Part shown: piece after piece, positions 700-55,462 of the stretch
Numbering within the stretch: position 1 is the stretch's first letter
Layout of the letters: each line of letters begins with the position of its first letter
From: Saccharothrix obliqua
GTDB lineage: Bacteria; Actinomycetota; Actinomycetes; Mycobacteriales; Pseudonocardiaceae
Assembly: GCF_019375475.1 (NCBI RefSeq)
Contig: NZ_JAHXGQ010000001.1
Span: 992,001-1,056,000 of the forward strand
Reading direction: 5' to 3'
Length of the DNA: 64,000 bases
Program-made: the position numbers and the translations under genes
Notes under the pieces: model-generated
Told to the model about the DNA's origin: nothing
Databases searched by the model: none
The model's input: only the letters and a program-made list of their open reading frames with translations

Positions 700-885
700 T
701 TAAAAGCGACGCTCGCCGCTTGGCAGGCCGCCAAGGATGACGTGAAGTGCGGGCTGCGTGTCATCCCCGTATGGCCTGGTCAAGACAACCACCCTCGTTC
801 CCAGGGCGCAAACGAAGTGCGTGTTTGCGCCCTGGGAACGAGCGCGGTTCGCTGGCGCGCAGGCCATACGGGGATGACACGCAGC
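700..885 (+). repeat. Nested-palindrome dispersed repeat, copy 1
   Basis: First of three copies (others at 51759-51950, inverted, and 55228-55420). It begins TTAAAAGC, has a small hairpin near 719-735 (CTTGGC/GCCAAG), then a 26-bp outer arm at 753-778 that pairs perfectly with 860-885, and inside it a 20-bp arm at 794-813 that pairs perfectly with 823-842 around a 9-nt loop. The spacers between outer and inner arms (about 15 and 17 nt) do not pair. Two inner-stem base pairs differ from the other copies on both sides, so pairing is kept. The gene-free stretch 680-1071 otherwise holds only the small tandem duplication at 906-939. No transposase is present; it could be a REP/MITE-like element, a strong terminator or a structured RNA. 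Confidence 0.85.
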
Positions 886-905
886 GGGGTGGGGCGTGCG
901 GCGTG

Positions 906-51725: not shown

Positions 51726-51758
51726 CCCCCCCGTGGGGGAACCCACACACCGATGCCC

Positions 51759-51950
51759 GCTGCGTGTCATCCCCGTATGGCCTGCGCGCAGCGAACCGCG
51801 CTCGTTCCCTGAGCGCAAACACGCTTTTCGTTTGCGCTCAGGGAACGAGGGTGGTTGTCTTGACCAGGCCATACGGGGATGACACGCAGCCTGCTCTTGA
51901 TGTCATCCTTGGCGGTCTGCCAAGCGGCGAGCGTTGCTTTTAATCCCGAG
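51759..51950 (-). repeat. Nested-palindrome dispersed repeat, copy 2 (inverted)
   Basis: Same element as 700-885 but in the opposite orientation. Outer arms 51759-51784 and 51865-51890 are perfect complements, as are the inner arms 51801-51820 and 51830-51849. The TTAAAAGC end is at the right (complement at 51938-51945), continued by GGATTA-type sequence shared with copy 3. By eye it is about 97 percent identical to copy 3. The gene-free stretch 51726-52112 holds this element and, beyond 51950, nothing I can identify apart from a CCGGTGCTTCCCGGGAAGCACCGG palindrome near 51991-52014. Confidence 0.85.
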
Positions 51951-55227: not shown

Positions 55228-55420
55228 CTCGGGATTAAAAGCAACGCTCGCCGCTTGGCAGGCCGCCAAGGATGACATCAAGGGCGGGCTGCGTGTCATC
55301 CCCGTATGGCCTGGTCAAGACAACCACCCTCGTTCCCTGAGCGCAAACGAAAAGCGTGTTTGCGCTCAGGGAACGAGCGCGGTTCGCTGGCGCGCAGGCC
55401 ATACGGGGATGACACGCAGC
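55228..55420 (+). repeat. Nested-palindrome dispersed repeat, copy 3
   Basis: Third copy, same orientation as copy 1. Outer arms 55288-55313 and 55395-55420 (26 bp) and inner arms 55329-55348 and 55358-55377 (20 bp) pair perfectly; the loop is 55349-55357. It begins CTCGGGATTAAAAGC, shared with copy 2. It lies 9 bp after the YbbN-like gene and 42 bp before the end of the convergent metallopeptidase gene. Confidence 0.85.
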
Positions 55421-55462
55421 GGGGCGGGGTGTGTGGCTTCGCCGCCGAGCGAGGTGGGCCGG

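Follow-up and report, generated by a model that had tools for sequence, protein, structure and literature searches.

A seemingly undescribed family of small interspersed repeats with nested, structured stems in Saccharothrix and other Pseudonocardiaceae

Introduction

Among described bacterial repeats, those of the REP/REPIN-RAYT systems resemble the element reported here in being palindromes that form stem-loops when single-stranded and in occurring both singly and as inverted pairs; in the REPs described, a GT(A/G)G head precedes a short palindrome, and the system includes a cognate Y1 transposase (PMC2817692). The pneumococcal repeats BOX, RUP and SPRITE are alike in being small, non-coding and interspersed, with predicted folds in transcripts and an excess between convergent genes. 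BOX and RUP have terminal inverted repeats (TIRs) and target duplications, and SPRITE has only AAAA/TTTT ends (PMC3049150). The spread of these three was inferred from their distribution, and neither "compensatory" nor "covariation" is used in that paper's main text (PMC3049150). A further likeness is to ERIC, NEMIS/Correia and CIR, repeats of about 100-200 bp with long stem-loops at the RNA level, the structure being conserved in CIR; most repeats of this type are described with TIRs, a terminal TA, target duplications and a single stem-loop, and CIR with two arms and a linker (PMC2229807). According to the same 2007 review, the movement of small MITE-like repeats was without experimental support, and how small structured bacterial repeats spread was left unresolved there (PMC2229807). 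A survey of stem-loop families mentions none of the names Streptomyces, Saccharopolyspora and Frankia in its main text (PMC2267715).

Here we analyze a nested-palindrome repeat present in a 64,000-nucleotide stretch of DNA from Saccharothrix obliqua, which we call the window, and follow it through the genome of this strain and those of its relatives.

Materials and Methods

The genome to which the window belongs, that of S. obliqua (Pseudonocardiaceae; 8.04 Mb in 49 contigs), is designated G000. A covariance model, R1, was built from 32 copies of this genome, and a second one, R2, was used for the family-wide and occupancy scans. The model search of G000 scored the best 150 candidates. Since both strands of one palindrome can yield two matches, the per-genome numbers reported for genomes other than G000 are rough. 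Alignment A3, fitted to R1, holds 86 elements (83 distinct) taken from fetched loci rather than sampled at random. A set of 132 elements, used in the strand, third-segment and nearest-neighbor tests, also consists of fetched loci only and is not a random sample, and counts made on it include related copies. For the strand test, stems in the 132 elements were found by Watson-Crick matching alone, treating both strands alike. Genes were placed with a codon-usage gene caller, and all gene calls are our own.

Results

The three copies of a nested palindrome that a preliminary description had reported are present in the window within a few bases of where it had placed them, with the nested arms as it had drawn them (Table 1). 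Two boundaries had to be moved: the outer arms of copy 2 do begin at 51759, with its TTTTAA ending at 51943 and not at 51950, and copy 3 does have an outer arm ending at 55420, with TTAAAAGC starting at 55235 rather than at 55228. Copies 1 and 3 have the same orientation and copy 2 the opposite one. The predicted fold of 700-900 has -132.3 kcal/mol (z = -13.1) on the minus strand and -133.8 kcal/mol (z = -11.2) on the plus strand, and none of 200 shuffles folded as well on either strand.

Table 1. Features of the three element copies, in window positions. The strand is that of the folding strand.
Feature	Positions	Strand	Remarks
Copy 1, element	700..901	-	Folding strand is the window minus strand; TTAAAAGC at 700 is the 3′ T-run end, G-rich 886-901 the 5′ end
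Copy 1, outer stem, 3′ arm of folding strand (26 nt)	753..778	-	Pairs counted in alignments
Copy 1, outer stem, 5′ arm of folding strand (26 nt)	860..885	-	Pairs counted in alignments
Copy 1, inner stem, 3′ arm (20 nt)	794..813	-	Lengthened by AACC at 787-790
Copy 1, inner stem, 5′ arm (20 nt)	823..842	-	Lengthened by GGTT at 846-849
Copy 1, apical loop (9 nt)	814..822	-	ACGCACTTC; common elsewhere: ACGCTTTTC and close variants
Copy 1, 5′ mini-hairpin	850..859	-	CGC-GCCA-GCG
Copy 1, counterpart of 3′ mini-hairpin	779..786	-	GTCTTGAC; two-base loop if three pairs form, doubtful here
Copy 1, third segment	735..741	-	GTCATCC on folding strand; equals 5′ outer-arm tip, complementary to 3′ outer arm
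Copy 1, 3′ domain	700..734	-	Hairpin TTGGC-GGCCT-GCCAA, GGCGAG region, CGCTTTTAA
Copy 2, element	51742..51946	+	Folding strand is the plus strand
Copy 2, outer arms	51759-51784/51865-51890	+	
Copy 2, inner arms	51801-51820/51830-51849	+	
Copy 2, third segment	51902-51908	+	
Copy 2, T-run	51938-51941	+	
Copy 3, element	55235..55436	-	Folding strand is the minus strand
Copy 3, outer arms	55288-55313/55395-55420	-	
Copy 3, inner arms	55329-55348/55358-55377	-	
Copy 3, third segment	55270-55276	-	

The element is about 190 nt long, and we use the term folding strand for the strand that ends CGCTTTT. Read 5′ to 3′, this strand has a CACACC-rich end, an outer stem of 24-26 bp, a 5′ mini-hairpin and an inner stem of about 26 bp (AACC...GGTT) with its apical loop, followed by a 3′ mini-hairpin, the other outer arm, a third segment, a hairpin GGC-GGCCT-GCC, the GGCGAG region and CGCTTTT(AAYCC). 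The spacers between the stems had been described as unpaired. This is too simple, since AACC/GGTT lengthens the inner stem and the rest of each spacer is a small hairpin in relatives. The 5′ mini-hairpin takes the forms CGC-GCA-GCG (or with the loop GCCA), GCCC-GCA-GGGC, GCCC-GGA-GGGC, GGGC-GCA-GCCC and GGGC-GAA-GCCC, and the 3′ one, in relatives, the forms GTC-TTT-GAC, GTC-TCC-GAC and GCC-TCC-GGC. When the spacers of the 86 A3 rows were searched independently of the alignment, all 12 distinct 5′ spacers had at least three Watson-Crick pairs round a loop of 3-4 (28% of shuffled ones), and at least three such pairs were found in 17 of 18 distinct 3′ spacers (5% of shuffled ones). The 5′ loop is GNA in 74 of the 86 rows and GCCA in 12; within G000 it is GCCA in 42 of 48 copies. 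The 3′ spacer in G000 is GTCTTGACC in 33 of 48 copies, where a mini-hairpin would need a two-base loop, so that the evidence for a four-way junction is stronger for relatives than for the strain of the window. RNAalifold drew the mini-hairpin junction as an internal loop, and the mini-hairpins are our own reading.

That the repeat might be an internal fragment of a known insertion sequence (IS) had been raised as an objection in the preliminary description. In G000, however, conservation stops about 16-20 nt outside the outer stem at the 5′ end and immediately behind the T-run at the 3′ end, and the repeat is thus not an inner piece of a larger conserved element such as an IS. An exact pattern for the 3′ domain had 46 matches in this genome, all within the 48 element loci identified below, and the pattern written backwards had none; two of the element loci lack the exact form. 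Many elements in S. algeriensis and S. tamanrassetensis form tail-to-tail pairs of about 430 nt, of which we wrote out 23 (one from G016), 38-122 bp apart by model bounds.

Several copies have individual features. A convergent pair at site 1 in G017 (L254; sites are numbered after the window copies) has a long inner loop and stems that resemble none of the others we read, and still keeps the nested layout, the third segment and the GGCGAG...CGCTTTT end. The tail of one G000 copy (L032) consists of tandem repeats with GTTCAGCAGTTCACC in place of the T-run, directly after the GGCGAG region. Several 3′ tails in G017 and G009 (L196-L205, L176-L185) are of variable length in GCTTTT-like units, as in the simple-repeat tails of retroposons.

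As the preliminary description had noticed, two inner-stem pairs are compensated between copy 1 and copies 2 and 3 (A-T to T-A and G-C to A-T). Its proposal of selection on folding gained support from the wider family: over the 83 distinct sequences of A3, two-sided changes were found in 40 of 60 modeled pairs, 96.4% of cells were paired (80.5% when shuffled), and the covariation score was 0.437, compared with 0.144 after shuffling and 0.060-0.099 with slid partners. These figures lean towards structure because A3 was fitted to the model; the arms themselves are plain inverted repeats in single sequences. Inner stems can be wholly different between subfamilies (e.g., CTCGTTCCCAGGGCGCAAAC vs. 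TTGGTCAGGGAGGGCAAGC) while the letters of the spacers and loop are kept. The outer arms, which the preliminary description gave as identical in the three window copies, have two main states genome-wide (16 + 16 of 32 copies), with more in relatives.

The mismatches that remain in the stems distinguish the two strands. In the strand test, one-sided transitions gave 151 G.T pairs and 8 A.C pairs on the folding strand (binomial p = 2e-35), or 69 and 6, respectively, when only distinct contexts were counted (p = 1e-14); the other 181 mismatches include many in the mini-hairpin region, which this method mispairs. Across 49 pairs of the outer and inner stems in 83 rows, we counted 107 G.T, 2 A.C and 39 other mismatches, and the inferred changes were mostly of one type (A>G in 94 cells, C>T in 13, G>A in 2 and T>C in 0). 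Wherever one strand has a G.T pair, its complement has an A.C mismatch, and so one single strand must fold. Comparison across copies shows that one strand, the one ending CGCTTTT, has been kept able to fold into the predicted nested structure, which in relatives would include a four-way junction. The folding molecule would be RNA or single-stranded DNA (ssDNA), and the G.U pairing makes RNA more likely; stable GNA triloops are known from DNA.

The strand-specific excess of G.T argues against strand-symmetric accounts, whether palindrome repair or a double-stranded protein site. Long palindromes are corrected by intrastrand template switching or repair, and neutral upkeep of this kind, with no selection on the folded strand, would be in keeping with the mosaics of outer and inner stem types that copies form (by eye) and with the homogenization of neighboring copies. 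However, such upkeep should favor neither strand, and the letters of the spacers and apical loop are conserved while inner stems change completely. We therefore consider neutral upkeep very unlikely and retain selection on one folded strand as the better reading.

A third part of the element varies together with the outer stem. The tip of the 5′ outer arm occurs again ahead of TTGGCGG: in G000, copies whose arms have GTCATCC also have GTCATCC at this place, and those whose arms have GTTCTCC have GTTCTCC there, apart from two loci that lack most of the segment (L018 and L039) and some that match partly (L017, L027, L034, L040 and one L028 copy). Over the 51 distinct combinations found among the 118 of 132 elements in which both parts were recognized, the mean longest common substring of segment and arm was 5.45, and none of 2,000 permutations scored as high, either across or within genomes. 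Agreement in G011 often extends over just 4-5 bases. By eye, the segment is also found in some other genera and relatives (CTGTCTCC in L279, CTCTCTCC in L278, CCATCCC in L283 and GTCATCC in L282) and, in partial form, in L273, L276 and L281. Across the copies compared, the third segment is thereby shown to change in step with the outer arms and to be complementary to the 3′ arm, with which, we infer, it could pair instead of the 5′ arm. Covariation of such a segment with a stem supports, on comparative grounds, the conservation of an alternative pairing.

A DNA search of G000 found at least 40 copies of the element, and the covariance-model search that the preliminary description had proposed, run with R1, found 48 distinct loci among the best 150 candidates (46 at ≥163 bits, one at 128 and one at 94). 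In a pattern scan of named genomes we obtained 25 loci, 22 of which were in S. tamanrassetensis and S. algeriensis; the other three, in metagenome bins (L106, L114 and L116), had no model match at E ≤ 0.01. Over 99 genomes, with the best 27 candidates per genome considered, R1 had matches in at least 15, G000 included. Matches numbered at least 27 each in G006, G009, G011, G016 and G017, at least 25 in G010 and at least 8 in G022, numbers in which the two strands may be double-counted. Within the Pseudonocardiaceae, R2 matched at least 79 of 390 genomes, from at least 14 of 46 genera, at E ≤ 0.001 and at least 68 of 390 genomes at E ≤ 1e-5 (best 6 candidates per genome in both cases). In a control of 394 class-wide genomes, some of them of the same family, the matches listed at E ≤ 1e-5 came from G000 and one other genome (G514), which belongs to another family. 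Among 18 family-wide loci that were printed (L269-L286), L272, L275 and L277 have no recognizable 3′ domain and L274 has no element in the printed stretch, the remaining loci being judged by eye.

At first, G005, G018 and G023 gave single distant matches, and at least one of these regions has an integrase-like ORF (by eye). A link to AICEs was dropped when the family-wide R2 scan found at least 6, 6 and 4 matches, respectively, in these genomes. The L286 element had no match in plasmid or phage records and window copy 1 none in plasmids, and two exact patterns searched against viral contigs found nothing.

We then compared the three window sites among fetched relatives using R2. An element was present at site 1 in 3 of 10 relatives (G009, G006 and, as a pair, G017), at site 2 in 2 of 20 (G009 and, as a pair, G016) and at site 3 in 1 of 20 (G009, where it is split by an IS). 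Fragments were seen by eye at site 1 in G016, site 2 in G011 and site 3 in G005 and G019, and L149 has no element. As G009 is occupied at all three sites, the simplest account is that the window insertions are older than the divergence of the window strain and G009. The copies at sites 2 and 3 share the inner stem CTCGTTCCCTGAGCGCAAAC in G000, where 3 of 48 copies have it, and a different shared inner stem, TTTGCCAGGGTATGCAAGC, in G009. An inner stem shared within but not between species indicates that neighboring copies have been homogenized and that part of the covariation is concerted replacement. The earlier reading of covariation as selection is supported, except that this part reflects replacement between copies and not point-by-point compensation. 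The nearest neighbor of an element was in its own genome for 120 of the 132 elements (permuted mean 29.6, maximum 46), but for 0 of 4 in G016. The element has thus spread, as judged from the differences in site occupancy between species and from the subfamilies peculiar to each; unoccupied sites in relatives have diverged too far to show the limits of any target-site duplication.

Other repeats were encountered at the same sites. The IS that splits the outer arm at site 3 in G009 (L147) bears a transposase (391-aa ORF) and has GGCCATACGG on either side, as a target duplication would be. The site 2 spacer of 9 of 20 fetched Saccharothrix genomes contains an unrelated palindromic array of 22-nt CGTGAGTCCTACGTTCAGGACG-like units in two inverted halves (measured at L128:152-337 in G008 and L145:144-357 in G001, with arms of 68 and 92 nt; by eye in L129, L130 and L140-L144), apparently a second, separate intergenic repeat family.

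All three window copies lie just after a gene, as the preliminary description had stated, but over 47 placements in G000 this is a tendency only. For the 45 placements with both neighbors called, 21 were convergent, 20 tandem and 4 divergent. The corresponding numbers were 17, 36 and 26 for 79 spacers, each ≥60 bp, drawn from six loci (L230-L232 among them) and from the window itself, a baseline that includes element-bearing loci (Fisher's test, p = 0.005 for the convergent excess and p = 0.002 for the divergent deficit). With the window alone as the baseline (6 of 31 convergent), the p-value was 0.016. In 18 of 47 placements, an opposing gene has its stop codon no more than 50 bp from the T-run. 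Pneumococcal repeats are described with the same convergent bias (PMC3049150), and the bias is therefore not specific.

The placement would fit a cis-acting 3′ UTR element, a folded RNA serving the preceding gene as terminator or mRNA-stabilizing barrier and spread by recombination instead of mobility of its own, and this is the main rival to an element working through a trans-acting factor. In addition to the convergent bias, the upstream neighbor is in sense in 31 of the 46 copies with a called upstream gene, and TTTT lies within 14 nt of GGCGAG in 41 of 48 G000 copies and in 47 of 72 others having GGCGAG, compared with a window background of just 0.16 T-runs (≥4) per kb of strand. However, the upstream neighbor is on the other strand in the remaining 15 copies, the T-run end was not called by a terminator scan, and the site 3 spacer has an ordinary hairpin instead in several relatives (by eye). 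Furthermore, a terminator needs neither conserved junction loops nor a third covarying segment. We regard a role confined to 3′ UTRs as unlikely, although it has the strongest claim among the alternatives to a mobile folded strand.

Regarding candidate mobilizers, Pfam searches of 25 genomes of the genus found Y1_Tnp in 5 (G000, G013, G015, G019 and G020), RVT_1 in 10 and the TnpB domain in 8. G000 has one match to each (38 bits for RVT_1). In the element-rich relatives G006, G009, G010, G011, G016, G017 and G022 neither Y1_Tnp nor the TnpB domain was detected; G010, G011 and G017 have RVT_1 only, and G006, G009, G016 and G022 have no match to any of the three. None of the three would thus be required in these four genomes, unless lost since or too diverged for Pfam, and Y1 transposase, reverse transcriptase and TnpB are each unsupported as a general mobilizer. 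In these four relatives, as far as domain searches can tell, the putative factor is no detectable Y1 transposase, known-type reverse transcriptase or TnpB. We also considered an autonomous form lying between nearby convergent copies; in two such G000 intervals the genes seem to belong to the host (by eye), and no internal ORF was seen in the copies looked at. The Y1_Tnp match of G000 (C23:378376-378729) and its TnpB match lie about 1 kb apart (C23:378376-379898), not at an element, and are probably an IS200/IS605-type element. A PATE or an omega/reRNA-type element would, like IS200/IS605, call for a partner Y1 transposase or TnpB in the genome, and neither was detected in the seven element-rich relatives named above.

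An element of the REP/REPIN or IS200/IS605 type, moved as ssDNA by a Y1 transposase, would have strand-specific hairpins, no TIRs in single copies and REPIN-like convergent pairs, all of which are seen here, and G000 has the Y1_Tnp match with TnpB nearby. Yet Y1_Tnp is found in so few of the genus genomes and in 0 of 7 element-rich relatives, and size and layout are unlike those described for REPs (PMC2817692), which makes this origin most improbable. A retroposon, that is, a bacterial analog of a SINE whose RNA is reverse-transcribed and re-inserted to give variable GCTTTT-repeat tails, has in its favor the variable tails of G017 and G009 copies, pieces with the 3′ end only in the relatives G016, G011 and G005 (by eye) and the RVT_1 matches in G000, G010, G011 and G017. 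On the other hand, RVT_1 has no match in four element-rich genomes, and all 46 exact 3′-domain matches of G000 are inside element loci, leaving no trail of 5′-truncated copies with the exact motif, although exact matching misses decayed pieces. We judge a retroposon improbable too, if marginally less so than movement by a Y1 transposase.

Discussion

The reading that we consider probable is that of a non-coding, non-autonomous family of interspersed elements (about 190 nt, and in some relatives also tail-to-tail pairs of about 430 nt) that works through a folded single strand. Under this model, the folded strand, more likely RNA than ssDNA, would be recognized by a putative trans-acting factor, and this recognition would both spread the element and maintain the fold, on which selection would act, since copies unable to fold would not be multiplied. 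The third segment would compete with the 5′ outer arm, and the position near gene ends would be either tolerated or targeted. In a bolder and decidedly tentative version, which we hold to be possible though doubtful, the element would be a mobile gene acting as RNA or ssDNA; its folded single strand, in which the competing third segment could displace the 5′ outer arm, would be the substrate of a new copying machinery other than Y1, TnpB or known reverse transcriptases. If true, this would be a new mechanism of interspersed-repeat amplification in the Pseudonocardiaceae.

The actinomycetes concerned are named and culturable, and in them the family offers a strand-resolved fold shared across genera as well as both empty sites and paired forms. 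As several of the rich genomes are without the usual mobilizers, the question of how small structured repeats spread becomes directly testable here.

Its copies are numerous, non-coding, intergenic and no longer than about 200 bp, with a transcript predicted to fold, and the element is in this respect of the same kind as BOX, ERIC and CIR, within the wide class of small interspersed repeats that have a structure. The preliminary description knew of no named family with its layout, and no Rfam family reached its gathering score in the window. Six loci were also searched against Rfam in E-value mode (L149, L138, L079, L078, L077 and L028, five of them with elements), and nothing at the elements reached gathering scores; the matches below gathering were to microRNA hairpin models and one to anti-hemB, while two tRNAs of L079, outside the element, were above it. 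In the open-access literature we found no description of the element.

Compared with REPs, the element has no GT(A/G)G head at either end, as judged from the alignment and the end profiles, and is about 190 nt long. From BOX, RUP and SPRITE it differs in occurring in actinomycetes, in lacking TIRs in single copies, in its nested stems with mini-hairpins and in its third covarying segment. The nested stems with mini-hairpins, together with a separate 3′ domain, also distinguish it from ERIC, NEMIS and CIR. A DDE-type MITE would be expected to look different as well: single copies have no TIRs and end CACACC... and ...CGCTTTTAA, and the outer arms are not terminal, about 50-65 nt following the 3′ arm, although tail-to-tail pairs do have inverted outer ends. 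As far as published descriptions set these families apart, the combination of nested stems with mini-hairpins, strand-specific covariation and a third segment appears to match none of those compared, and these spreading, structured elements look like a family not described before.
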